Shown here: piece after piece, positions 9,966-39,010 of the stretch
Numbering within the stretch: position 1 is the first letter of the stretch
Layout: each line of letters starts with the position of its first letter
NCBI GenBank assembly: GCA_023823795.1
Contig: CP085710.1
Location: 4,986,001 to 5,050,000 of the forward strand
DNA from: Bacillus sp. F19
Lineage (GTDB): Bacteria > Bacillota > Bacilli > Bacillales > Bacillaceae
Reading direction: 5' to 3'
Length of the DNA: 64,000 bases
Notes under the pieces: model-generated
Told to the model about the DNA's origin: nothing
Seen by the model: only the letters and a program-made list of their open reading frames with translations
Database searches by the model: none
Program-made: the position numbers and the translations under genes

Positions 9966-10163
9966 ATGAACGGTCAAAACCGCGAACATATTAAACCCGG
10001 TACGCCTGTTCAGATTGTCCTGAAGCAGGATCAGCGATCTGGAAAGCTTACGGGCGGTGTTGTAAAAGATATTCTGACAAAATCTGCTTTTCACCCTCAC
10101 GGAATAAAAGTGCGCCTTCAGGATGGTCAAATAGGCCGAGTAAAATCAATTGATGCTCCTTAA
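9966..10163 (+). CDS. ywbE: YwbE family protein (DUF2196)
   Basis: A 65-residue protein with the YwbE signature: NGQNREHIKPGTPVQIVLKQ, then FHPHGIKVRLQDGQIGRVKS. It is a small beta-barrel-like fold of unknown function, present in Bacillus and some other bacteria, and nucleic-acid binding has been suggested from its basic surface. It starts at the base after the stop of the preceding 56-residue gene. No terminator is evident before the convergent GNAT remnant. Confidence 0.85.
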   Translation: MNGQNREHIKPGTPVQIVLKQDQRSGKLTGGVVKDILTKSAFHPHGIKVRLQDGQIGRVKSIDAP

Positions 10164-10480
10164 GATATTTCAGTATAAATGATTTGCTGATAAGGATCAT
10201 AAACGAGGATATAAACGGTCAATTGCCCTTTTATCACCTCTATACTCTGTGATAACCGGAATCCAAAGTGTTCGTAGATCCTGACATTTCCCAGTGTTTC
10301 CATCTCCAGAACGCTGAATATCCTCCTGAATTCAGCCTCTTTTAGCGCCGCTCTATTCTTTTGACTCATAAACTTTTGGCCTCTATATTTATTATCAACT
10401 GTGACCATGTCTACTACTAGATGTGGTTTTTGTCTTTCATAAAAGCCATTCTTTGTGAAATAATGGACAGTTTTCCCGCT
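10160..10480 (-). pseudogene. GNAT acetyltransferase, N-terminally truncated
   Basis: The minus strand encodes the C-terminal half of a GNAT enzyme. It runs from HYFTKNGFYERQKPHLVVDM through VDNKYRGQ (the acetyl-CoA binding turn, normally Q/RxxGxG/A, here degraded) to GNVRIYEHFGFRLSQSIEVI near the end. Open frame extends upstream of the first ATG (10408) to a stop near 10485, but no start codon or N-terminal strands exist. The motif VDNKYRGQKFM lacks the second glycine expected for CoA binding. It is a remnant, with no reason to expect activity. Confidence 0.65.
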
Positions 10481-10762: not shown

Positions 10763-11335
10763 TCATTTATTCATTTTAGAAAGAAACCCGCCGATCAAAT
10801 CATCCGCTGTTTCTTCTTTTACTTCTTCTTCTGCTGATGAAGCTGACTCCTGCAAAGCTTTTTCCCAATCGAAATCATCAAGCCCTGCATTTTCATCAAA
10901 ATCCTCGTCAGGCTCAGGTTCCTGCATAGCCGGACGGCTGCCAGACGGAAAGGCTGTTTCCTGCAAGTAAAGGGCCTCGTCAATATCAAGTGCCCTGCTG
11001 TTAAATGAAGCTAGAAGGGAAGCTGCTCTAATTGGATCAGCAAGAATCTGATACACGATGCTTCCAAGCAGCGCTTCAGAGTGCTCGTGTTTAATCCAGT
11101 CTCTCTGCGCTTTGCTGAGTTTTTGCGGAAGCGGAATTGTGATGCTTTCCTTCTCTTTAACAAAAGAATCACCGACTCCTTGTGAGACAAATTCAGCAAT
11201 TTTGCTTGAGAAGTTCCTTTTTTCCGTTTCTTTCAGCTTCTGCAGCTGTTTTATTATGTGCTCAGGAGTATCTGAGGGGATGCGAAACGTAATCGCCTGT
11301 CCCCTTTGAATTCCTGATGAAGCGCCTTTATTCAT
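10763..11335 (-). CDS. parR: ParR-like centromere-binding adaptor protein
   Basis: 190 residues. The N-terminus (GQAITFRIPSDTPEHIIKQL, then KRNFSSKIAEFV) has the beta-strand plus two-helix pattern of a ribbon-helix-helix DNA-binding domain, as in plasmid ParR proteins. The middle is helical, and the C-terminal 60 residues are strongly acidic and disordered, ending in a short hydrophobic segment DDLIGGFLSKMNK. In ParR the C-terminal tail contacts the ParM filament tip, and this tail may do the same (inference). It starts 12 bases downstream of the actin-like gene, in the order parM-parR used by type II partition systems. There is no clear match to a named family, so the role rests on context and the RHH pattern. 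Confidence 0.65.
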   Translation of the reverse strand: MNKGASSGIQRGQAITFRIPSDTPEHIIKQLQKLKETEKRNFSSKIAEFVSQGVGDSFVKEKESITIPLPQKLSKAQRDWIKHEHSEALLGSIVYQILADPIRAASLLASFNSRALDIDEALYLQETAFPSGSRPAMQEPEPDEDFDENAGLDDFDWEKALQESASSAEEEVKEETADDLIGGFLSKMNK

Positions 11336-11347
11336 AAAACCACCCTA

Positions 11348-12529
11348 TTATTTGGTAGTAGCTGCTTTTTTATCTTCACTGCTTTTTTCTTTGTTTGACT
11401 TGCGGTAAAAGTCAAAAACGAGCTTATAATAAGCATTTGCCATCATCCAGATGCTTTCATTCTCATCTTCAAAGAAGTCAATATTGTAGCCGTCAAGATT
11501 GTTATTAAGCGTTTTAAGGTAATCTTTCAGAACAACCGCTCCTCCGCCGACAAAATAGCAGATTTCAGTTTGTGAATTCTTTTGCCAAACGTTGCGCAGG
11601 TGGCGATATTGCTTCTTCGCAAGATCTAAGAGAATGCGATCCGTAATATCATGAACGCTTGTGCGGCTACCCCTTACATAGATATGATTGCGGTCAGTCT
11701 TCTTGGTGATGATTTCTACTACATCACGGCGGCTGTCAAGTTCAACACCATGCTTAGAACGGATCTCTTCGCGGATTGCTTCAAGTGATTCTACAACGCC
11801 AAGGTTAAAGCCCTGTGCTTTATCGTCATCTACATTGCGGTTTTTAATCACTGCGATATCAGTAGAAAGGCCACCGATATCCTGGATGATGATGCGCTTA
11901 TCAATCAAGTCTTTATTGATGATGTTTAAATCCTTGTCCATCACTAAGTTGATATAAGCTGCAAATCCTTCAGGATATACTTTCACTTCGTCAAATTTGA
12001 TGTTTACTTTTAATCCCTGATATTTAGGAGTAATCAAAAATTCAACCTGATGAACATTTCCAAGAAGCTTAGAGCGGTAACCGACATCCTTGCCTTCTTT
12101 TGCTTCTCTTAATGGAAGTCCAGTGCCGAGAGTATATGTTGCATCAATGACTTTGTTATTTCTGCGGAACACCTTTTCATTTTCAGGTTTTACTGCATCA
12201 AGTGCAATTGAAGCAAACAGCATAACTAGCGTTTGATCTTCTTCTGATTTGCTGCTGCCAGGATCAAGCTCAGAAGCATTGTCGCTTTTTGTAGCTAAGT
12301 GTCCAACACGGTAAATAGCATTATTTTCTTTTAAAGCAGGGGAGTGAACTTTAATATGGATTCCATCAAGCGGATCCTTGCTGTCTAATTCTTCGATTCC
12401 AATAACCGGACGATCTTCAATGTCTCTTGCAATGACATTCGGTATGTATAGTTGAGAGTCGTATTTTCCGAAAATTGCTTTTACTGCATCATTTCCAACA
12501 TCGATTGCTGCGATTCTAGAATTACTCAT
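11348..12529 (-). CDS. parM: actin-like DNA-segregation ATPase, ParM/StbA family
   Basis: 393 residues with the actin-fold nucleotide motifs: phosphate-1 AAIDVGNDAVKAIFG (residues 6-20), phosphate-2 QDIGGLSTDIAV (about 215) and adenosine motif FVGGGAVVLK (about 328). This marks a ParM/StbA-type filament-forming ATPase rather than MreB. It should polymerise with ATP and push ParR-bound DNA apart. The ATG at 12529 is chosen, with AAAGGA 9 bases upstream; a further GTG lies at 12547. The acidic/basic tail (SNKEKSSEDKKAATTK) is probably flexible. A sigma-A promoter and an iteron array precede it. The ends of the window-wide gene set are chromosomal, so this is a partition cassette on a chromosome or an integrated element. 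Confidence 0.85.
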   Translation of the reverse strand: MSNSRIAAIDVGNDAVKAIFGKYDSQLYIPNVIARDIEDRPVIGIEELDSKDPLDGIHIKVHSPALKENNAIYRVGHLATKSDNASELDPGSSKSEEDQTLVMLFASIALDAVKPENEKVFRRNNKVIDATYTLGTGLPLREAKEGKDVGYRSKLLGNVHQVEFLITPKYQGLKVNIKFDEVKVYPEGFAAYINLVMDKDLNIINKDLIDKRIIIQDIGGLSTDIAVIKNRNVDDDKAQGFNLGVVESLEAIREEIRSKHGVELDSRRDVVEIITKKTDRNHIYVRGSRTSVHDITDRILLDLAKKQYRHLRNVWQKNSQTEICYFVGGGAVVLKDYLKTLNNNLDGYNIDFFEDENESIWMMANAYYKLVFDFYRKSNKEKSSEDKKAATTK

Positions 12530-12580
12530 GAACACCATTCCTTTCACTTCATGAATTAGTATAAAAATCCATTCTATTAA

Positions 12581-12609
12581 AGAGTATTAGAGATTGATAG
12601 TTTCGTCAA
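12581..12609 (-). promoter_or_regulatory. sigma-A promoter of parMR
   Basis: On the minus strand TTGACG is followed after 17 bases by TACTCT, about 50 bases before the parM start. The iteron array begins about 24 bases upstream of the -35, so bound adaptor protein could also repress transcription. Confidence 0.6.
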
Positions 12610-12632
12610 TAGAGTTAAAATGATTACGTTTT

Positions 12633-12808
12633 TGTATACTTGTTTACAAAAGTGTTTACAACGTACACAAATATGTTTACAACGTCAACATTTTGTATAC
12701 ATCCCTTCATACCAGGATGCGTACATACTTGTATACATGTATACATTATTTGAAAACAATTTGTTACATTTTGTTTACAAGTACACGTGAATTGTATACA
12801 TGTATACA
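12633..12808 (-). repeat. parC-like centromere: ten TGTWTACA iterons
   Basis: Ten 8-mers of the form TGTATACA or TGTTTACA (one ends in T) start at 12633, 12641, 12653, 12674, 12694, 12730, 12738, 12772, 12793 and 12801. Three pairs are directly adjacent, and most other gaps are near multiples of 10-11 bp, so the sites fall on one face of the helix. A few further variants (CGTACACA, CGTACATA) lie between. TGTATACA is its own reverse complement. An array upstream of parM is exactly where parC lies in ParMRC plasmid systems, and RHH adaptor proteins bind such iterons. Binding itself is inferred. Confidence 0.75.
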
Positions 12809-18747: not shown

Positions 18748-19239
18748 TTATTCTGTTTTTTTGCCTTGTGTCATTTTTGGAATCAAAAGCCCAATCATTA
18801 GGATGACGCCAATGGCAATCAGGAGAATATACGTCATCATTAAGCCGGAATTTTGGCTAGTATCTGTATTTTCCGTTGCGGTCATACTCATCGATGGTTC
18901 TGCAGTGCCGGAGAATAAATCCATTTGTTCAGCTTTGGATTTAATTGTGTTTTTCTCTTTTGTGTAATTAGTGAAGAGCTGTTCCTGCAGATCATCCTTT
19001 TCATCCCTTGATGGCTTTTCAAAGGTTAGATCTTTTTGCTCTTCCGGTATTGAGTTTCTTTTTTCATAAAGTGATTCTTCATGCAGGTAATCCGTGTTTT
19101 CCTTAAGTTCTTTTTCCTCATAGATATTAGGATCGAGTTCCTCAAGGTTTGCTTCTGTCTCTGCTTTTACTGCAACCCCGCTGGTCAAACTAAAGATAAC
19201 CAGAAATAGGGTTAGCGAAATGCCTGTTTTACACTTCAT
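18748..19239 (-). CDS. essA: type VII secretion protein EssA (YueC)
   Basis: 163 residues: an N-terminal signal-like helix (GISLTLFLVIFSLTSGVAVKA), a charged extracytoplasmic stretch rich in E and K, and a C-terminal membrane helix (TYILLIAIGVILMIGLLIP) with a basic tail. This matches the EssA/YueC membrane component of firmicute type VIIb secretion. Its ATG overlaps the end of esaA by 11 bases, with AGGA 9 bases upstream inside that gene. It is the last gene of the operon and is followed by a terminator. Confidence 0.85.
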   Translation of the reverse strand: MKCKTGISLTLFLVIFSLTSGVAVKAETEANLEELDPNIYEEKELKENTDYLHEESLYEKRNSIPEEQKDLTFEKPSRDEKDDLQEQLFTNYTKEKNTIKSKAEQMDLFSGTAEPSMSMTATENTDTSQNSGLMMTYILLIAIGVILMIGLLIPKMTQGKKTE

Positions 19240-22126
19240 GGGCATGTTCCTGATTAGCCTTTTCGTTTGTGTTTTTAAGAGCATTGACAACAAACGGCAG
19301 GATGGTCAGAACAAGGAGGATGCCGATCAGCACAATCACTCCCTGAGTAAATAAGTTATTTGCGTCATATTGGATCGAGATGTACACCTTAGACATCGGA
19401 TCTTCATACGTGAAGTTAGGCGCTGCTAATGCAAGCAAAGGACTGATAAAGAACGCAACAAGACCTACACTTGCAAGCCAGCCTGTAAAATTGCCGAGCA
19501 AGAACGCTACCCGTACAATTGTTGATGCTGCAAATAACAGGAGGACTGTAAAGATTGACCATTGAATAGCACGTTCATCTGTAAGCGTGTATATATTTAA
19601 ACCGAATACGCTTATAATGAGCCCCACAATTAAGTTTAAAAGGCCAAACATAGAGCCTCTTACTAATAACGGTGCTGCTTTAAAATAATGACTGAAGAAT
19701 CCGATCAGCAAGCTGCTGATTAGGATGATAACCAGAATAACGACCGGCGGAACCGCTTTTGCCTGAGCAGCCGGTGCTTCCCCGCTTATTTGCAGCGGAT
19801 TGGCAAGATGCTCATAAACATAGCCGTTGTTCTGTCCGTCTACAAACGTATTGCCGAGAATACTGAAAACGTCATCTCTGACAAGCTGTGTTGAAGCTAC
19901 ATTCGTTGCCCATTTATCATTTAATAGATCTGCTTCAGATTGAACTTCATTCACTTTTTTCTGGAGGACATCCGTACTGCTTACAACCGTCTCCTGTCTG
20001 TCCCCAAGCGAGTTTATCAAGTCCGTAATCATAACCAATTCCTGACTGATATTTTGCTGATTGACAACAAGTGTTGTACCGTCCGAATTTTCAAGCGGCA
20101 TTCTAGAAGCTGTATTTTCTGATTCCTGAACTTGGCTGAGTACGTTATTTGCGCTCTCTTCCATAGAAGCAAGATCCTCTAATATAGCTGTCTGCTGAGC
20201 ATCGAGCTCCTTGCTGTATTCATCCATGAATGCAAGAGCGGAAGCCTGGACTTCTTTCATTTCTTCTTCAGCAGCCGGCAGCTCCTGATTCAGCTTGTCC
20301 CATGCGCCTTGTTCTTCTTCATTGATTGATAGAATGCCAGCCACTTTCGTTTTTTGCATTTCATCTGCAAGGACAGCATCTTTGGCCGGATCTGATGAGT
20401 TATTCATACGCTTGGCGGCTGCCTCATACTGGGACAAAATCGTATGGTATTTCAGTACATCGTTCATTGATGCATTTCCGATAGGCCTGCTGAATACACT
20501 CTCAAGTCTTTGCTTTCTTTCAGGACTGAGCGAGTTAAGAATGGTTTGTTCTTGTTCCATGATGGCAGCTGAACCTGAGTTCATATTACCTGTCAGCTGT
20601 TTGATCTTTTCTTCCAGTTTGCTGTTTTCATCTTTTAGAAGCTGATTTTCTTCTAATAGTTTTGCATTGTCTTCTGTCAGCTTTTCATAAAGAGCAAGTA
20701 ATTTATCATACTCGGCTTTCCATGAGTTCTGATCTTCTTTTGACTTAATCGATTCTTCGATTGCAACAAGCTGGGCTGACATAGCCTCTAATTCAGTTAT
20801 CGCTTGTGTTACTTGATCCGGTTTAGGGTCCGGAATGGTTTCCAGAATTGTCTTCAGATTTTTCATCTGTTCTGAAACAGCAAGAATGTTAGCCCGCTCC
20901 TCTTCCATGTTGGCAGGACTTTCATTTTCTCCAGGAGTTTCTGGTTCTGCGACCCCTCCATCATCATCAGGAGGCCCTTCCTCTCCGTTACCTGGTTCCT
21001 CCCCAGGACTTCCTTGCTTAAGGTTTTCCCTAAGAGGAATGAGCTCCCCTTCAAGACGGTTCAGTGTATCCTGGTTATCCTTCATAATATACATGTCCAC
21101 ATAATTACGGTGAACAGTCTCAAGCTCTCTTGCCTGGCGTTCCACTTGGCTGAGCCTTACACTGCCAAGGTTTTCTGCTGTTTTTTGATTCTGATCAAGC
21201 TGCTGCTGAATGTCAGTCATTCTTGATGCAAGCATGCTTCCTTGTTTGTTAAATGCCTGCTGCGTTTCATTCTGTACTTGATCCACTTCCGCACTGCCAC
21301 CCTGAATGGCCGTTAAACTTTCCTGCTGGGCCAACGTCAGAAGCTGCTGCTGATCTTCTTGATATGCCTGATATTCTTCAACATACTCTACGAATGAAGC
21401 AAGGTTTTTCTCAAATTGCTCGACCGTGTTTTTTTGTTCAGGCGTTTCTTGTTCAGCCTGTTTTATTGTCGTTTGCAATTGCTCAAGCATTTGCTTTTGC
21501 TGATCTAATTCCCCAGCCAGATCTTTAGAGCTTGGTTTATAAAAATTCAGCATGGCATTTTGAAAGGCAATTTCCTTTTCAAGAATGCGGTCAAACTCTT
21601 CTCTTACATTCTCCATGTCCTGTGCGACATAGCTCCAGTACAGCGAAGACATTTGCTTATTTACGCGGCCTGTAGCGTCTTCCAGTGCGCGGAGCACTCT
21701 TTGTCTGTTTTCAGCATTCAGCTGATTTTGGACCACATATTCAAATTCTGCTTTTGAAGGCTGCTGTTCATTGTAAGTTAATATGTTGGCAGAAAAATTG
21801 GAAGGAATATAAATGACAGCATCGTACTGCCCGTTTTTCAGTCCGTTAACTGCGGCACTTCTGCTTAAGATTGTCCAGTCATACTGGGAATCCTCGTCTA
21901 GTATCCCTGCAACTTCCTTTCCGAATTGAACAGGTTCAGCTTCTGTATTTTCCCCTTCAGCCTTTTCTGTTCCGATGTCCTCATTAACGACAGCGATGTT
22001 TCTTGTAGCTTTCTCCTTTATTTCCAGCGGGTTGTCCCCGATGACTTGGAAGAAAAGAGCAGGCACTGCTAAGATAAGCAGCACCGCAGCTATCATTTTA
22101 ATCGTATGTTTTCTTTGATCTGTCAT
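19229..22126 (-). CDS. esaA: type VII secretion protein EsaA / YueB-type surface protein
   Basis: 965 residues. One N-terminal membrane helix (residues 8-28) is followed by a very large extracellular region and then five or six C-terminal membrane helices (from about 775). The ectodomain begins with a conserved NIAVVNEDIG segment and is dominated by long coiled coils rich in Q and E, interrupted by a Pro/Gly/Glu-rich linker at about 365-405. In B. subtilis YueB is the receptor of phage SPP1, and in Staphylococcus EsaA spans the wall as part of the secretion complex. At 965 residues it is shorter than YueB (about 1,076). It overlaps essC by 4 bases. Confidence 0.9.
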   Translation of the reverse strand: MTDQRKHTIKMIAAVLLILAVPALFFQVIGDNPLEIKEKATRNIAVVNEDIGTEKAEGENTEAEPVQFGKEVAGILDEDSQYDWTILSRSAAVNGLKNGQYDAVIYIPSNFSANILTYNEQQPSKAEFEYVVQNQLNAENRQRVLRALEDATGRVNKQMSSLYWSYVAQDMENVREEFDRILEKEIAFQNAMLNFYKPSSKDLAGELDQQKQMLEQLQTTIKQAEQETPEQKNTVEQFEKNLASFVEYVEEYQAYQEDQQQLLTLAQQESLTAIQGGSAEVDQVQNETQQAFNKQGSMLASRMTDIQQQLDQNQKTAENLGSVRLSQVERQARELETVHRNYVDMYIMKDNQDTLNRLEGELIPLRENLKQGSPGEEPGNGEEGPPDDDGGVAEPETPGENESPANMEEERANILAVSEQMKNLKTILETIPDPKPDQVTQAITELEAMSAQLVAIEESIKSKEDQNSWKAEYDKLLALYEKLTEDNAKLLEENQLLKDENSKLEEKIKQLTGNMNSGSAAIMEQEQTILNSLSPERKQRLESVFSRPIGNASMNDVLKYHTILSQYEAAAKRMNNSSDPAKDAVLADEMQKTKVAGILSINEEEQGAWDKLNQELPAAEEEMKEVQASALAFMDEYSKELDAQQTAILEDLASMEESANNVLSQVQESENTASRMPLENSDGTTLVVNQQNISQELVMITDLINSLGDRQETVVSSTDVLQKKVNEVQSEADLLNDKWATNVASTQLVRDDVFSILGNTFVDGQNNGYVYEHLANPLQISGEAPAAQAKAVPPVVILVIILISSLLIGFFSHYFKAAPLLVRGSMFGLLNLIVGLIISVFGLNIYTLTDERAIQWSIFTVLLLFAASTIVRVAFLLGNFTGWLASVGLVAFFISPLLALAAPNFTYEDPMSKVYISIQYDANNLFTQGVIVLIGILLVLTILPFVVNALKNTNEKANQEHAHEV

Positions 22127-25100
22127 GTGTAGATCTTCCTTTCAATGACACAAAGAGGAATTTGTATTTTCGTTTCTTTGCCATTTTCCACATAGTATCC
22201 GAAGCCTGGGTGAATATCGCTTTCTTTCCGGCTGTAAGGCAAGGTATATAGGGTTTGCTCTGATTTTTTCATTAAAATGAGCGCCTGGCGGATTTGTTTG
22301 ATTTCACTTGTGAACGCATCAAATCCTTTTGTCAGCTCGTTGTTATTTCCTGAAACAATGACATTAAAGCCGAGGTGGCTGTAGTTTTTCATAAATCGTG
22401 TCAAACGGTCTTGCAGCATACTGTCAAGAGATTGCTGGAATCTTGAATAGCCGTCAACGACAAGCATAACCGGCGAGAAAGCTAAATTATTTACAATACC
22501 CTGCTGGATTGCTGTAAGGTAGGTTTGTTCTCTGTCTTTAAGAAGTTCTTCTGTTCGATCAAGCCACGACGATATTTGTTCTTTCGTGTCAAGATAAGCA
22601 ACCTTTTCTTCAGAAGCATAGCTTGCCAGTCCGCGGTCAATCGAATCGAATATACCGATAGATTCAGTTGGCTGAAGCAGCGCTGTGTTCAAGATGACTT
22701 TAAGAACATTTGTCTTCCCTTTTTGAGTCTGGCCGAGGATGATGCAGTGCTTTGTTTTCGCCAGATTCACGCTGACAGGCAGAACATGCTCTTCATCAAG
22801 TCCGATTGGAATCACGCCTGTTTTATGAGCATCAGCAGTGAACTGTGTAAAGTTGATCATGGTCAGTTCAGCAGGAAGCATTGGGACAGGACGAGGAAGC
22901 TTGGCATTCTTGTGCTTCACCTTCAGCATTCCAATATCTTCTTTAATGGAATCAAGCAGCTCATAATCATCCTCTCCATTAGCAGGCAGGAAAATTTGAG
23001 AGAAATATGCCTGATCCTTCTTGATAATGGCGCGTCCCGGAATTGGTTCAGGCGCAAACGGAACTTTTCCAATGGCCATGTATGTTTCAGTCGTATCCAT
23101 AAGGTAATGAAGGATTTTCGTTTTCATGCTGTTCATTAATGATTGTCTGACAGACTGTACCCTTGTGGCAGTAAAAATCATAAAGATGCCCAGAGACTGG
23201 CCATCACGCGCAAACTGAATCAGCTGCGTTTCAAGCTCCTGCATTTCCTCTTTCACGAGATCAAAATTATCAATGGCAATATACATAAGAGGGAGCTTGT
23301 TTTTACTTAATGAATTGTACATTTTGATGCTGCTGACCTCTTGCTGCTGAAACAATTGCTTCCTCCGCGAAATCTCATCTTTTACGATTCTCATAAACTT
23401 ATCAATTTTCAGCTCTTGATCGAGCTGGAAATAATCCGCTGTATGCGGCAGCTGTCTAAGCGGCAGCAATGTCCCATTGCCGTAATCTATGACGTAATAG
23501 TGGGCTTCCTCAGGGCTGAGCCTTGCCGCGATGCTTAAAAGCAGAAGCATCACAGTATGTGATTTCCCATAGCCGGAAGAACCGAAGATGGCGATGTTGC
23601 CGTCATCCATCAGCTGATACGAGTATGGGGTCTGGCTTTGCTTTTCAGGCTCATCAATCAGACCAAGATATATTTCCTCATGCTCCTGGGAAGCATATTG
23701 ATGGCGTGAAATTCTGTTTTCAAGCGGCGGGAGCCATGGGCTGTTCAGCTTGCGAATACCCATTTTCGTCTGCAATTCTTCAATTTTATCGACGATCACT
23801 TCAATCTGTGATTCCGTATCTTTTTTATGCTGTTTAGAAGATGCGACATTTGATAACGGCTGCAGACCAAGGTCTGTCACGATCGCTACCTCATCTTCCG
23901 ACTCTGATGTTTCTTCTAGATAAGGCGCCCCGCTCCATGCTGATTGGAACAGCTCGTAAACCTCATTATTGCCTACCTGCAGGTAGCCTCTTCCTGTAAT
24001 GGTAATAGAGGCGGCATCTGCATTTTTCAAAATCTCTTTACTGTCGCTTGCATCCTGAACCTTAAGGGCCACTCTGAATCTGGCATTACTCCAGATTTGA
24101 TCATCGATGACTCCACCAGGCTTTTGTGTTGCCAGGATGAGATGCACGCCTAAGCTTCGGCCGATGCGCGCTGTGCTGACAAGCTCCCTGATAAAATCAG
24201 GCTCTTCGCTTTTTAATTCCGCAAATTCATCGGAAATTAAAAATAAATGAGGCAGAGGTTCTCCGGCCTGATTGCGTTTATAAAGACTTGTATAATCATT
24301 AATGTGATTGACCTGATACTGATCGAATAGACGCTGGCGCCTTTTCAGTTCACTTTTGATTGATGCAAGGGCACGGGCACTGAAGTTTTTGCTGCCTTCA
24401 ATGTTTGTGATCGTGCCAAGCAAATGCGGCATGTTTTTAAACGGCTGCGCCATTCCTCCGCCCTTGTAGTCAATCAGCAGAAAAGCTACCTCATGTGGGT
24501 GGAAATGAACAGCCAATGACAGAATATAGGTTTGAAGGAATTCACTTTTCCCTGAACCGGTAGTACCCGCTAATAGACCGTGAGGCCCATGAGCTTTTTC
24601 ATGAAGATTTAATTCCACTACATCTTCCTTGCCCTTTAGTCCTACTGGAACAGCAAGAGATTTTGCCGATTCCCGCGTCTGCCAGTTTTGCTCAATCGGA
24701 AGATCATCGACTTCTTTTACATTGACCATCTCTAAAAAGGAAACGCTTTTTGGAATCGAATTTGTCATTCCCACTTGGTGATCTAGCGTACGAAGCATCC
24801 GGGCGAACGACTCATTTCCCTCACGCTTATGTATATCCAGCTTAAAAGGAATCGCAGCCGCTTTTTTCTCCTGAATGAGAATGTCTCCTTCTTGATCGTT
24901 GACGTACCTCACAAGCGTGTGGATGTTATCAGACAGGCTCTCTTTCGCTTCGGCAGCAAAAATAACGGAAATGCCCAAATGTGAAAACTCGCCTTCTAAA
25001 TATTCCAAAATCACATGATCAGAAATAAGCTGCTGATTAGTAATAACAAAAATAATGTGAGGTGCAAACCTTGTGTTTTCTTTCTTTTCTTCCAGATCAC

Positions 25101-26607
25101 GCTCACGCAGCATTTCATAGATCGAAGTAAGCAGCTGGTCTCTCGTCTGCTCGTTATAAATCATGCCTTTTGCAAATGCGTGCGGAAGCTGAAAATGCGG
25201 AAGCCATTTCAGCCATTCCCAGCTCTTGTATTCTTTTTCATTAAAAATAAACACAAAGCGGACATCATGATAGCTGTGTGAAAAAGCAAGCTGTCCAATT
25301 AATTGATGAAGTTCATTTTTCATGATTGCTTCTTTCCCGATCAGTCCCATAGCACCCTGAGAAAGGTTCACACTGATTGGCACTGAACCAATTTCCCTGT
25401 ATACCTTTTCCATTTGCTGTGACTGTTCAAGCAGATCATCCACTTCTCTGTTCGCCATATCGTTTGAGCTAAGTGAAATTTGATAGCTTGATTTAACGGT
25501 GCCCGTTCCGATTCGAAGCTCCAGAAAGTCATTGCTTTCAGGCGTTCTTTCCCAAATTCGGTCTGATATTTGCCGCGTCATATACTTCATTTGTTCAAAA
25601 GAAGGAAAGTGGTAAGAAAGAACCTGGCGCTGCTTTTCAGCCGCCTCCTGAAGCTCATGGCGTTTGTTTTCAAGGTATTGTGTGTATACGCGGAGTCTGC
25701 GCTCTTGGCGTTTCCTGTAATTTCCTTTTTCTCTGAAATATTGCGCCGTTGACGTGATCAGCGTCATCACAAACATGACCATGGAGACGATGATAAAAAT
25801 GCCTCGCGGAGCAACAAGAGCGACAATTCCCATCGCAATCATCATGACAAGCGGCGGCAGAATAATCAGCCACAGGCTCCGTGATTGATCGTCCCCTTCC
25901 TGCGCTGGGAAAGTGAGCGAAATTTTATCTTTCGGAAGCTCATAGATCATCCGCGGCGTGCGGCGGTAGATCGGATATTTTTTGCTCATTTCAGATCTTG
26001 GTTTTTCCGTATGGGGCAGGCTTGAATGAAACTCGTCTATGCTCAAAACCTGTATCAAATCGGCTTCTATCAGCCGGACCGTCATAAACGGCCAGAAGAG
26101 AATGTCCCCAATTTGCAATTGCGTGAGACCCTCTATCTTCCTTCCATTCAAATAGACCTTTTCACCCTCAGGCGAGACCTTCCAATGACTTCCTGCTTTT
26201 AACAAGGTGAGAGAGCCTTTTCCAAGAACGGGAAAAGTACCCTTATCTTTATAAATGTGAGCCTCTTTAATGGTCGCTGAAAAAGAAATTTCTTTTTGAA
26301 ATCCAATATAGTAGGCTTCTGCTTTTTCAGGCGCCGGTGTTAAATAAATTGTCAGCTGTTCTGATTGATCGTCAAGACGAAATGGCTCTTTTACTGCAGC
26401 CTTTCCAATGGGTTTGTCATTCTGAATAATGACAAATCCATCTATTTCCTCTGTTTTTGCAACGGTTAAAGCTCCTTCAGAAAAAGGGAAATTCCTGACT
26501 GTCAGCGTGTGCTGAATCTCTGATCCGATGGAAATCGGACGGAACGCATCTTCGTTCACCTCATATTGCTGATAGGATTCACCGTGAAAAACCCATAAAA
26601 TACTCAT
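22123..26607 (-). CDS. essC: type VII secretion ATPase EssC (YukBA)
   Basis: 1,494 residues, the expected length. The N-terminal 190 residues hold two FHA-like domains, two membrane helices lie at about 230-275, and three FtsK/SpoIIIE ATPase domains follow. Walker A sequences are GTTGSGKS (about 679), GSSGYGKS (about 1007) and GQTQKGKT (about 1290). Only the first domain keeps the full catalytic set; the later ones are typically weaker nucleotide binders that contact substrates. It is the motor and central membrane component that exports WXG100 and LXG-type proteins. It is a single uninterrupted gene, unlike the early split annotation yukB/yukA. It is preceded by essB with a 27-base gap and overlaps esaA. 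Confidence 0.95.
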   Translation of the reverse strand: MSILWVFHGESYQQYEVNEDAFRPISIGSEIQHTLTVRNFPFSEGALTVAKTEEIDGFVIIQNDKPIGKAAVKEPFRLDDQSEQLTIYLTPAPEKAEAYYIGFQKEISFSATIKEAHIYKDKGTFPVLGKGSLTLLKAGSHWKVSPEGEKVYLNGRKIEGLTQLQIGDILFWPFMTVRLIEADLIQVLSIDEFHSSLPHTEKPRSEMSKKYPIYRRTPRMIYELPKDKISLTFPAQEGDDQSRSLWLIILPPLVMMIAMGIVALVAPRGIFIIVSMVMFVMTLITSTAQYFREKGNYRKRQERRLRVYTQYLENKRHELQEAAEKQRQVLSYHFPSFEQMKYMTRQISDRIWERTPESNDFLELRIGTGTVKSSYQISLSSNDMANREVDDLLEQSQQMEKVYREIGSVPISVNLSQGAMGLIGKEAIMKNELHQLIGQLAFSHSYHDVRFVFIFNEKEYKSWEWLKWLPHFQLPHAFAKGMIYNEQTRDQLLTSIYEMLRERDLEEKKENTRFAPHIIFVITNQQLISDHVILEYLEGEFSHLGISVIFAAEAKESLSDNIHTLVRYVNDQEGDILIQEKKAAAIPFKLDIHKREGNESFARMLRTLDHQVGMTNSIPKSVSFLEMVNVKEVDDLPIEQNWQTRESAKSLAVPVGLKGKEDVVELNLHEKAHGPHGLLAGTTGSGKSEFLQTYILSLAVHFHPHEVAFLLIDYKGGGMAQPFKNMPHLLGTITNIEGSKNFSARALASIKSELKRRQRLFDQYQVNHINDYTSLYKRNQAGEPLPHLFLISDEFAELKSEEPDFIRELVSTARIGRSLGVHLILATQKPGGVIDDQIWSNARFRVALKVQDASDSKEILKNADAASITITGRGYLQVGNNEVYELFQSAWSGAPYLEETSESEDEVAIVTDLGLQPLSNVASSKQHKKDTESQIEVIVDKIEELQTKMGIRKLNSPWLPPLENRISRHQYASQEHEEIYLGLIDEPEKQSQTPYSYQLMDDGNIAIFGSSGYGKSHTVMLLLLSIAARLSPEEAHYYVIDYGNGTLLPLRQLPHTADYFQLDQELKIDKFMRIVKDEISRRKQLFQQQEVSSIKMYNSLSKNKLPLMYIAIDNFDLVKEEMQELETQLIQFARDGQSLGIFMIFTATRVQSVRQSLMNSMKTKILHYLMDTTETYMAIGKVPFAPEPIPGRAIIKKDQAYFSQIFLPANGEDDYELLDSIKEDIGMLKVKHKNAKLPRPVPMLPAELTMINFTQFTADAHKTGVIPIGLDEEHVLPVSVNLAKTKHCIILGQTQKGKTNVLKVILNTALLQPTESIGIFDSIDRGLASYASEEKVAYLDTKEQISSWLDRTEELLKDREQTYLTAIQQGIVNNLAFSPVMLVVDGYSRFQQSLDSMLQDRLTRFMKNYSHLGFNVIVSGNNNELTKGFDAFTSEIKQIRQALILMKKSEQTLYTLPYSRKESDIHPGFGYYVENGKETKIQIPLCVIERKIYT

Positions 26608-26634: not shown

Positions 26635-27945
26635 TCAGTCAGAACCCGATTTTGCAGGAGCGGCTGGCTTTTTCTCCGCAGCTTTCGCCTGCTCAGCTGC
26701 TTCCTTTGCCTCTTCTTCTGCTTTCTGCTGTTCTTCCACTTGCTCTTTCGCCTTCTGTTCTTCCTCTAACTTCTGTTCTTCTTCTTTCTTCTGGGCTTCC
26801 TGTTCTTCTTTAAATTGTTTTATTTCTGCATCAATTTTTTGAAGTTCCTGCTGCTTTTCTTCACTGTTCATTTCGGTATCTGCTTTTATTTGATCCTGGT
26901 ATTGAATCAGTCCAAATACAATCAAATCCCGGTCCTCAAGATTTCTTGCAAGTTCGAGTGCTTCTTTAGCCTCGCCTCTTCCAATATGTATCCAATACTC
27001 AAGGTACTGCGGATCGGATTGAAGGGTCAGCGTGTTTTGCACGCTTTCCTTTTGGTCTTCTGTCAAAGATTCATTGACTATGTAAGACGAAGCTAATTGA
27101 AATTTAACAACATTAGGCATTTCTTCTATGCTGTAGCCTGCAAGGGTGCTGACTACTTCACTGTAATCGTTGCCCAAGTAGTATTCATTGCTCTCTACAA
27201 ATGCTTCTTGTTTAGGGTGAAGGGAAAAAAGGGAATAAGCTGTATAAACAAGTGCGGGAACAAGCAAAACAAGAAAACCCAGAGCTATGTATCGTGTAAG
27301 CTTCCATTTCTTTTCCGGAATGGAGACAAGAGCTGCATTCTTCTTGTCGATTTCCCTCATGTTCTTTTCTATCAGGGTTAACAATTCAGGATAAGTGACC
27401 GCTGAAAGCAATTCCCTTGATGCTGGTGAAATGTCCAAAGTTTCATTGAATTTCAGATATTGCATAAAGGTATATTTGGAATCAACTGCAGCTGCAACGC
27501 AGGCTTTCAATTCCTGCCAAAGCCTGTCACCGTCCTGTTCATACGGAGGAATGCTTTCCATTACGCCGTAATGAAGAAAATAAGGCGTAAAGCTTTGATC
27601 AAATAAAATGTTTTCAGGACATACAATCAAATGAAGCCGCGATAACGAGTGGTTTTTCACCTTTTTTACCAGCTGATAGGAAAAATTCCACTTGCTTCGC
27701 TCTTCTTTTTTAATTAAACTGGAAAAACCTAAATAAGTCTCAGGCGGCTGAACATGAACCCTTAATTCATCTTCAGTCAGAACGATTTCCCGCTTAATGG
27801 ATGGATCCATTTCTTTCAGCATATCGATTTCTGCTGCTTGATCCAGTTTTACTTTTTCTGTTTGAAAGATGAAAGTATAGCCATCTTCCTTCGTTATGAC
27901 AGCTTCAAGCTGCTGCTCTAAATATGACGGTTTTTTTTCTGACAT
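26635..27945 (-). CDS. essB: type VII secretion protein EssB (YukC)
   Basis: 436 residues. The cytosolic N-terminal half is a pseudokinase-like fold (residues 1-215; PPETYLGFSSL, CPENILFDQSFTPYFLHYGV). One membrane helix follows (IALGFLVLLVPALVYTAYSLF, about 225-245) and then a helical extracytoplasmic part. The last 70 residues are low-complexity repeats of E, K, Q and A ending in APAKSGSD. This is EssB/YukC, which bridges EssC and the outside. The ATG at 27945 has GGAGT 8 bases upstream. An earlier ATG at 27963 overlaps the esaB stop and lacks a site. Confidence 0.9.
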   Translation of the reverse strand: MSEKKPSYLEQQLEAVITKEDGYTFIFQTEKVKLDQAAEIDMLKEMDPSIKREIVLTEDELRVHVQPPETYLGFSSLIKKEERSKWNFSYQLVKKVKNHSLSRLHLIVCPENILFDQSFTPYFLHYGVMESIPPYEQDGDRLWQELKACVAAAVDSKYTFMQYLKFNETLDISPASRELLSAVTYPELLTLIEKNMREIDKKNAALVSIPEKKWKLTRYIALGFLVLLVPALVYTAYSLFSLHPKQEAFVESNEYYLGNDYSEVVSTLAGYSIEEMPNVVKFQLASSYIVNESLTEDQKESVQNTLTLQSDPQYLEYWIHIGRGEAKEALELARNLEDRDLIVFGLIQYQDQIKADTEMNSEEKQQELQKIDAEIKQFKEEQEAQKKEEEQKLEEEQKAKEQVEEQQKAEEEAKEAAEQAKAAEKKPAAPAKSGSD

Positions 27946-27959
27946 TGAGAATGACTCCT

Positions 27960-28199
27960 TCATAGGATTTCAAAACGATCTCCTGTTGTAATTCCGCATT
28001 CTACAAGCTTATGGTTGCCTGATAGGACAATCTGCTTATTGGGAACGCGCACCCAATACCCTTCTCGAGGTGGGTCAGAAATGCATCTTGTCTGCCATAC
28101 TATATCCACTACTTTTTTGACAGAGTGATAATTTGATAGACGCAAATCAAATGTTTCTCCTGTGTAATGCTTCAAATCGATTGTCACTTCAATATACAT
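27960..28199 (-). CDS. esaB: ubiquitin-like protein EsaB (YukD)
   Basis: 79 residues with the beta-grasp pattern of YukD: MYIEVTIDLKHYTG, RLSNYHSVKKVVDIVWQ, then ECGITTGDRFEIL. It lacks the C-terminal Gly-Gly of real ubiquitin, as YukD does, so it is not a conjugated tag. It is a cytosolic component needed for, or regulating, type VII secretion. It sits between esxA and essB, as in B. subtilis. Confidence 0.9.
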   Translation of the reverse strand: MYIEVTIDLKHYTGETFDLRLSNYHSVKKVVDIVWQTRCISDPPREGYWVRVPNKQIVLSGNHKLVECGITTGDRFEIL

Positions 28200-38068: not shown

Positions 38069-39010
38069 ATGATTAGGGCAGCTATTATCGGATTAGGTGC
38101 AATCGGACAGCGATTAATAAAGAACTTTACAGACCATCCAGATATCATTATTTCAGCTATATGTGACCGGAATGCTGAAGTTACACGTGAAACATCTGAA
38201 AGACTTAAAAATGTGTCTTCATTTACTGACCATGCAAAAATGCTTGATGAAGCAGAAATCGATCTAGTTTATGTAGCAGTTCCGCCCAAATTTCATCATG
38301 GGGTTGTAACCGATGTAATTGCAAGGGGCAAACATGTCTTATGTGAAAAACCTTTGGCAAACTCATTGGAAGAAGCAGAAAGTCTTTATATCCAAGCATA
38401 AGAAAAAGGAATCATCCACGCAATGAATTTCCCTTTGAATTATAGTGCTGGAAGCAAAACCTTTGCGTCCCTCATAAAAGAGGGATATGTTGGAGAACTG
38501 AGACGGCTTGAGTTAAAGATGCATTTCCCTGAATGGCCGCGCCCGTGGCAGCAAAATGACTGGGTAGCAAGCCGTGAACAAGGCGGTTTTGTACTGGAAG
38601 TCGGCGTTCACTATATTCAGCAAATCCAAAAAATCTTCGGTCCTGTCCATGTTTTGAATAAAATAGTTCAATATCCAAAAGATCCAGCTGGCTCTAAAAT
38701 TGGAATCCTGGCTCAAATGGAGCTGCAGGACGGCACGCCTGTCTTATTCGACGGCCTGAGTCAAATTGCAGGAATGGAAGAAATCCGATTTACTGCTTAT
38801 GGGACAGAAGGAACTCTATCCTTGCTGAACTGGTCGGCACTCGAAGGAGGCAAGCATGGCGAACCTATACAAGGGATTGATTCAGACAGTTCACTTGCCA
38901 ATTCTTTAATTGATGAGCTTGTAAAAGCCCTGAAAGGCGAAAAAGCTGAGATTATTGATTTTGAGGCAGGCTATCAGGCACAGAATATTTTAGAAAAATT
39001 AAGAAGATAA
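38069..39010 (+). pseudogene. Gfo/Idh/MocA oxidoreductase with one in-frame stop
   Basis: A 313-codon frame is interrupted once by TAA at 38399-38401; both sides continue in the same frame. The N-terminal Rossmann domain has GLGAIGQRL (NAD(P) loop), CDRNAEV and the signature lysine CEKPLA (about 97). The C-terminal domain (GYVGELRRLELKMHFPEWPRPW, then EVGVHYIQQIQKIFGP) carries the usual catalytic histidine region. The stop lies between SLYIQA and EKGIIHA, where one base change from a sense codon would suffice. Such enzymes oxidise sugars or sugar-like alcohols. A good start (AGAAAGGCGG upstream) and pepT 16 bases downstream suggest an operon. Readthrough or sequencing error is possible. Confidence 0.75.

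Follow-up and report, generated by a model that had tools for sequence, protein, structure and literature searches.

A complete parM-parR gene pair preceded by an array of repeated sites was found in a 64,000-nucleotide stretch of Bacillus sp. F19 (positions 4,986,001 to 5,050,000 of a 5,085,462-base contig, hereafter the window). As dnaA occupies the start of the same contig, the cassette was confirmed to be chromosomal and not plasmid-borne. Its type II order (parM, parR and array), with the array 5' of parM and both genes on the minus strand, bears out the original prediction, made from the window alone, of a ParMRC-like partition cassette on a chromosome. We propose that it is an origin-proximal chromosomal ParMRC system, which probably serves to move or place the origin region in parallel with ParABS. 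The genes and their pairing, the recurrence of the array, the place on the chromosome near the origin, purifying selection and the coexistence with ParB-type genes were all observed directly.

Position is the property that now favours the displacement of a chromosomal locus among the three roles initially offered for the cassette. In 58/58 genomes, parM was located on the dnaA contig, 35-287 kb to the left of dnaA, and was transcribed away from it. The distance was 78-146 kb in 18/18 genomes of the same family and 35-287 kb in 40/40 further genomes belonging to 16 families. These genomes represent 18 of the 31 family matches and 40 of the 201 order matches described below and were picked for few or long contigs; the parM coordinates of the first 18, but not those of dnaA, had been seen before, and none of the 58 was dropped. 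Outside the order, one genome displayed parM about 51 kb left of dnaA, and genome G698 was left unplaced, as its first 3 kb yielded no dnaA. Two genes of the window, used as controls, did not keep such a place. The neighbouring rlmI gave no match at the threshold in 7/40 genomes; among the other 33, it was at most 290 kb left of dnaA in 20, versus 33/33 for parM, and htpG, located 54 kb left of dnaA here, was so placed in 1/13 versus 13/13 for parM (27/40 without match). Where rlmI and parM were both near the origin, rlmI was the nearer in 7 cases and the farther in 13. The local neighbours of parM varied between genera. Two ParB-type genes, presumably spo0J and noc, occurred beside dnaA in 24/24 genomes, the farther one at 10-21 kb from it, and on this count a replacement of ParABS by the cassette was rejected.

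At the family level, ParM was matched in 31/81 genomes: 8/8 of the same genus (96-100% identity), 14/21 of genus g3 (one split over two frames and one partial at a contig edge), 6/6 of g4 and the one genome each of g5 and g6. Genus g2, which we take to be Bacillus, provided 1/44, a plasmid-type copy at 45% identity, and 0/44 of chromosomal type. A profile search of the order recovered 201/397 genomes from 55/135 genera, with 9.7e-225 as the weakest best E-value, and ParM identity ranged from 79 to 86% in the 40 order genomes measured. In the class, 36/398 genomes matched and fell into two clear groups, one of 24 genomes at 756 bits or above, 8 of which belong to other orders, and one of 12 at 308 bits or below. 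The named loci, i.e. the best 80 of 187 confirmed relatives in the genome scan, include Metabacillus, Cytobacillus, Neobacillus, Mesobacillus, Rossellomorea, Sutcliffiella, Fictibacillus, Evansella, Heyndrickxia and Pontibacillus, among others. Alkalihalophilus pseudofirmus OF4 (locus L077) is also a carrier. Plasmid relatives were found in 66 records, all below 60% identity (43.6% for the best among the 40 listed). Two genomes of the same genus (G046 and G050) carried a separate second ParM, 44% identical, on other contigs. The genome of F19 itself comprises a second large replicon (C2, about 507 kb).

The product of parM (11348-12529, minus strand) is an actin-like ATPase of 393 residues that belongs to the Alp7A-like type. 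It scored above the cut-offs of PF22128 (Alp7A_like_C; E 1.2e-37, 129.6 bits, cut-off 22) and PF17989 (ALP_N; E 1.1e-8, 35.9 bits, cut-off 26.3), matched the phage family PHROG_691 'partition protein' (E 7e-40) and remained at 30.5 bits, under the curated cut-off of 300, with NCBIfam NF052678 (FcmB). Residues D10, G12, N13, K17, D217, G219, G220, T223, D224 and G328-G330, which we assign to the actin-fold nucleotide motifs, did not vary in either of two alignments, with 24 and 30 sequences, in line with the earlier claim that these motifs are intact. The structural model was weak (predicted local distance difference test score, pLDDT, 57.8); with it, Foldseek returned ParMs, and CorM/CorR were among the fold matches. 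Sequence searches of the PDB gave weak matches to Cbc-ParM alone (E 0.17 and 0.0069), and a phage collection gave three weak partial matches. Taken together, Pfam, residue conservation and the fold matches of this weak model identify ParM as a predicted actin-fold ATPase with intact nucleotide motifs. The gene is under strong purifying selection: its ratio of nonsynonymous to synonymous substitution rates (dN/dS) was 0.011-0.025 against five genomes of the same genus, at dS 0.37-1.5, and the adjoining rlmI, DEAD-box helicase and P450 genes displayed higher ratios wherever both could be computed. Over 57 genomes, mean divergence was 17.9% for ParM and 15.1% for DnaA. Locus L029 (genome G054) has its parM divided between two overlapping frames, owing either to a true frameshift or to a mistake in the sequence.

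The partner gene, parR (10763-11335, minus strand), is separated by 12 bp from the 3' end of parM and codes for 190 residues. It was recognized by its pairing with parM and by its N-terminal half, which is homologous to the partner proteins of plasmid ParMs (E 1e-16 at best). A partner open reading frame (ORF) occurred downstream of parM in 80/80 named loci and in 57/57 genomes, so the co-occurrence expected from the first reading of the window was found. As also anticipated, the protein has no obvious named family: ParR had no match in Pfam or NCBIfam and none better than E 0.1 in PHROG, while 39 of its relatives gave scattered weak Pfam matches alone. The N-terminal part is followed by an acidic linker and a terminal motif (DDLIGGFLSKMNK). 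The long acidic tail already pointed out for this protein turned out to be a family feature, since the linker spans 42-71 residues and its net charge did not exceed -12 in any of the 57 genomes (median -18), and the C-terminus displayed GxFLxxMN in 54/57 and near variants in the other three. No transmembrane-like stretch was found in these 57 proteins, the top 19-residue mean being 1.27. In the predicted structure, an extended stretch precedes helices at 25-37 and 42-51, and residues 11-50 form blocks of pLDDT 70-84, which makes a ribbon-helix-helix fold plausible. Overall, the model reached pLDDT 64 and a predicted template modelling score of 0.28, and a fold search with this weak model gave no match.

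Upstream of parM, the AT-rich candidate parC array (12634-12807) contains 10 GTWWAC half-sites, including three pairs at 8 bp and two perfect 16-bp palindromes (TGTATACATGTATACA), whereas any other 180 bp of the window has at most two. The same word is found in relatives: 148 upstream regions, reduced to 140 distinct ones after dropping duplicates and short ones, displayed 8.8 GTWWAC per 500 nt, versus 0.94 in first-order resampled sequence. On these counts a chance origin of the array was rejected. Preferred spacings include 8, 12, 20-21, 42 and 62 bp, mostly at 100-325 bp before parM, and clusters of at least three sites occurred in 145/148 regions. The strict paired site GTWWACWWGTWWACA was present at three places in the array and at one other place in the 5.59-Mb genome. 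Judged by its words and spacings, this is a putative centromere-like row of repeated sites beside parM. The original prediction spoke of iterons; its repeat array is thus upheld and recurs in relatives, but the repeats appear as paired half-sites at a pitch of about 20-21 bp and not as simple iterons. A pitch near two helical turns suggests that a protein could be bound along one face of the DNA. By eye, the upstream region of locus L095 (Neobacillus sp. PS3-12) apparently contains two separate half-site clusters.

Two further elements accompany the array. The first is a core interrupting it (12694-12724, minus strand), with family pattern GTRYRCATRYTGGTWTATAAGGATGTGTACA and an extended -10-like motif TGGTATATAAGG, whose coordinates and pattern were drawn by eye and then searched. 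It was recovered within 7 mismatches in 81/148 upstream regions versus 0/740 first-order resampled ones; the information content inside the core is inflated, as rows were chosen by the core itself. This core may be a second promoter or the binding site of another protein. The second is a candidate parM promoter, TTGACG-17-TACTCT, bordering the array on the side of parM (12581-12609, minus strand; coordinates by eye), where a promoter had been proposed. In agreement with that proposal, a promoter-like pattern TTGAYN-N15..19-TANNHT followed the array in 81/148 regions, 76 of them with a spacer of exactly 17 bp, versus 9.6% of shuffles. A general promoter scan gave 6 promoters versus 6.4 expected from shuffles, and the edge candidate was not among them.

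In the ParMRC model (R1, pSK41, Alp7A), ParR sits on the centromere, its tail captures filament ends and filament growth separates the copies. By analogy, the array in front of parM would serve as a chromosomal centromere for ParR, and bound ParR would repress the adjacent parM promoter. Its conserved C-terminal motif, carried by the long acidic linker, would cap or nucleate ParM filaments, and the growing filaments would push apart, or hold in place, the two new copies of the array. Since the array, about 35-290 kb left of dnaA, is replicated shortly after initiation, it is the sister origin regions that would be moved as cargo, and the system would add to Spo0J/ParABS. Binding of ParR to the array, repression, filament formation and movement of the origin region are thus all inferred from the better-known systems. 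That chromosomal ParMs may add to ParABS is a possibility raised in the accessible text of PMC12270681. A broader proposal, for and against which we find the arguments evenly balanced, is that roughly one in two species sampled in the order has a second, actin-driven segregation machine, whose centromere would be required left of and near oriC and whose position would have been kept or regained despite exchange between families, the genus taken as Bacillus being without it.

The history of the cassette was examined in trees of 57 genomes, G054 being excluded for its split parM. ParM and DnaA distances were moderately correlated (Pearson 0.51, Spearman 0.21), and 22 splits were common to the two trees, out of 52 and 53. 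Families f1, f11 and f42 each formed one side of a branch in the DnaA tree with support of 97-98 (98 for f1), and f46 did so with 66. In approximately unbiased (AU) tests, ParM rejected the clades f1 (p 3e-16), f46 (7e-7), f11 (0.014) and f42 (0.003), and ParR rejected f1 (0.002) and f46 (0.0001), p-values that are too small as these four families were picked after earlier trees. Simple vertical descent, under which the ParM and DnaA trees should agree, was rejected by these tests. Because the ParM and ParR trees conflict with that of DnaA, the cassette has been either exchanged or differently sorted between lineages, and yet was kept near the origin. Remnants of tandem parM copies were found in 2/170 loci, some of which come from the same genome: a decayed copy in L041 (11376-12379, genome G065) and a partial one in L129 (1952-2260), each directly upstream of the intact gene. 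The nearest relative of the decayed L041 copy is the intact parM of the same genome, G065; the copy thus resembles a tandem duplicate and not a displaced older resident, and in-situ replacement by a foreign copy is disfavoured. When eight plasmid-type homologues were included in a tree, one branch set 26 chromosomal ParMs apart, with SH-aLRT (Shimodaira-Hasegawa-like approximate likelihood ratio test) support of 93; this branch was not starred, and the tree contains long branches. Either exchange between lineages took place with retention near the origin, in which case the position would be the result of selection, or an old shared position was combined with a sorting of tandem copies.

The second of these alternatives would weaken the argument for selection on position, and it is one of several points that count against an origin-moving function. 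The conflict with DnaA is also not uniform, as f11 (p 0.54) and f42 (p 0.12) were not rejected by ParR. Since 196/397 order genomes gave no match at E 1e-40 and g2 is without the chromosomal type, the cassette is dispensable over evolution. Part of the origin-proximity effect is that of a shared neighbourhood, because rlmI too is often near the origin, and the p-values of the controls (Fisher's test for htpG) ignore shared ancestry and overstate the significance. The presence of ParB-type genes in all genomes inspected means that the origin has another segregation system. The ribbon-helix-helix fold of the putative adaptor, ParR, stays a merely plausible one, its weak model having given no fold match. 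Finally, in filamentous cyanobacteria, FcmB and FcmC form a chromosomal ParM/ParR pair that serves cell shape (PMC12645912, accessible text).

This last precedent supports the strongest rival explanation, namely that the pair was recruited to a cytoskeletal role in cell shape or envelope and that the array is an autoregulatory operator. As described in the accessible text of PMC12645912, FcmBC derives from plasmid partition and has settled on chromosomes, its filaments are membrane-bound and the nucleoid distribution of mutants is not obviously changed, and on this precedent the 'new job' initially envisaged for the chromosomal copy may still apply. The weak FcmB match of ParM is in the same direction, yet its score is far under the family cut-off. 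Autoregulation of ParR through its own sites is usual in such operons. However, a row of some 8 to 10 sites, 160-170 bp or so in length, would exceed the needs of an operator, and a shape role leaves the constant proximity to the origin unexplained. The lack of a transmembrane-like stretch in ParR is a further argument against it, although the membrane could be bound by other means. On balance, we regard a cytoskeletal role as unlikely.

Less likely still would be a regulator of replication initiation bound at the origin, or an anchor of the origin specific to sporulation, in place of a general segregation motor. The left-arm place near the origin and the ParB-type genes coexisting there fit such a function, and in sporulating B. 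subtilis RacA anchors the origin region at the pole. On the other side, the edge promoter, the one feature considered in this respect, looks like a vegetative sigma-A type, which is a weak argument.

A leftover partition locus of an integrated plasmid, integrative and conjugative element or prophage, with no host function, appears very improbable. The plasmid homologues and the phylogenetic conflict, which suggests exchange, could be read in its favour. Against it are the presence of the cassette in about half of the sampled order genomes, at high identity in those measured, the low dN/dS of parM and the variation of its neighbours between genera. Among 18 window neighbours examined with Pfam and 10 neighbours in five relatives, no mobile-element gene, integrase, relaxase or replication gene was found; the scanned neighbours were ordinary enzymes, transporters, secretion proteins and proteins of no assigned role, and the window contains no tRNA gene. 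Distribution, selection and neighbours thus strongly disfavour an integrated element, and with it the segregation of such an element, one of the roles first suggested; the contig itself proved to be neither plasmid nor prophage. That the cassette acts in trans on resident plasmids or on the second replicon is equally hard to credit: such a replicon exists here and plasmids are known in related species, but the second contig has no GTWWACWWGTWWACA site, and G046 and G050 carry their own second ParM on other contigs.

Our proposal of an origin-moving ParMRC system can be compared with several known systems. In B. subtilis plasmid pLS20, the partner gene of alp7A is located downstream of it, as is parR here. 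Alp7A and ParM have PF22128 in common, and the Alp7A structure (5ec0) was a fold match at 18% identity; the Alp7A/Alp7R/alp7C system differs in being plasmid-borne and remote in sequence. Among the closest non-chromosomal relatives listed are plasmid ParMs of B. methanolicus pBM69, Niallia sp. Man26 and Cytobacillus kochii (41-43% identity). Their partners are likewise downstream with a homologous N-terminal part, but are only 144-149 residues long, with a shorter tail and an end rich in F-L-[ND]-F-D, and by eye other repeat words (GCATAC, GCATGC) are found near the promoter. In C. kochii, the plasmid copy (L213) and the chromosomal type (L083) occur in different strains. ParABS (Soj/Spo0J/parS) is also chromosomal and origin-proximal, but relies on a Walker ATPase instead of an actin and on another centromere and adaptor.

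Actin-like partition is described chiefly for plasmids. Chromosomal ParMs as such are already known. According to the accessible text of PMC12270681 (Ali et al. 2025), chromosome-encoded ParMs (cParMs) include Dh-cParM1 and Cb-cParM, with conservation inside Desulfitobacterium, and Bt-cParM, conserved in several Bacillus species. As in the cassette described here, parM is chromosomal with an adjoining parR, and both are conserved across species. Dh-cParM1 (8x1i) was a fold match to ParM, distant in sequence at 16% identity in the alignment of the weak model, and the same weakness of the model (pLDDT 57.8) applies to any comparison with the closed beta-barrel subdomain of cParMs. In the text accessible to us, proximity to the origin is not mentioned for cParMs, 'oriC' appearing once, in a reference title. 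Within the accessible literature, excluding subscription papers and supplements, we found no report on this ParM family, on the array and partner motif that go with it or on its constant position near oriC. On that basis, the parts are those of known ParMRC systems, while the origin-linked chromosomal lineage across the order, with its long array and distinct ParR tail, appears to be new.

Other features of the window were recorded along with the cassette. A parS-like site (AGTTACACGTGAAACA, 38179-38194, plus strand), 25 kb from the array towards oriC, has one mismatch to the Spo0J-site consensus, and is weak since 18/100 shuffles gave a match at two mismatches or fewer. A yukC gene of WXG100 (type VII) secretion was recognized at 26635-27963 (E 2e-123), and the large adjoining ORFs at 19229-26607 may make up the remainder of a Yuk cluster. 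An ORF resembling GNAT acetyltransferases (10160-10408) is shortened, with 82 residues here versus 219 in the relative L008.

Our results suggest that bacteria with this cassette would use actin-like filaments on their own chromosome. As the family is conserved near the origin in relatives of B. subtilis, actin-driven chromosome movement becomes directly testable, and the usual model organism is possibly without a system carried by roughly one in two of the species sampled from its order.

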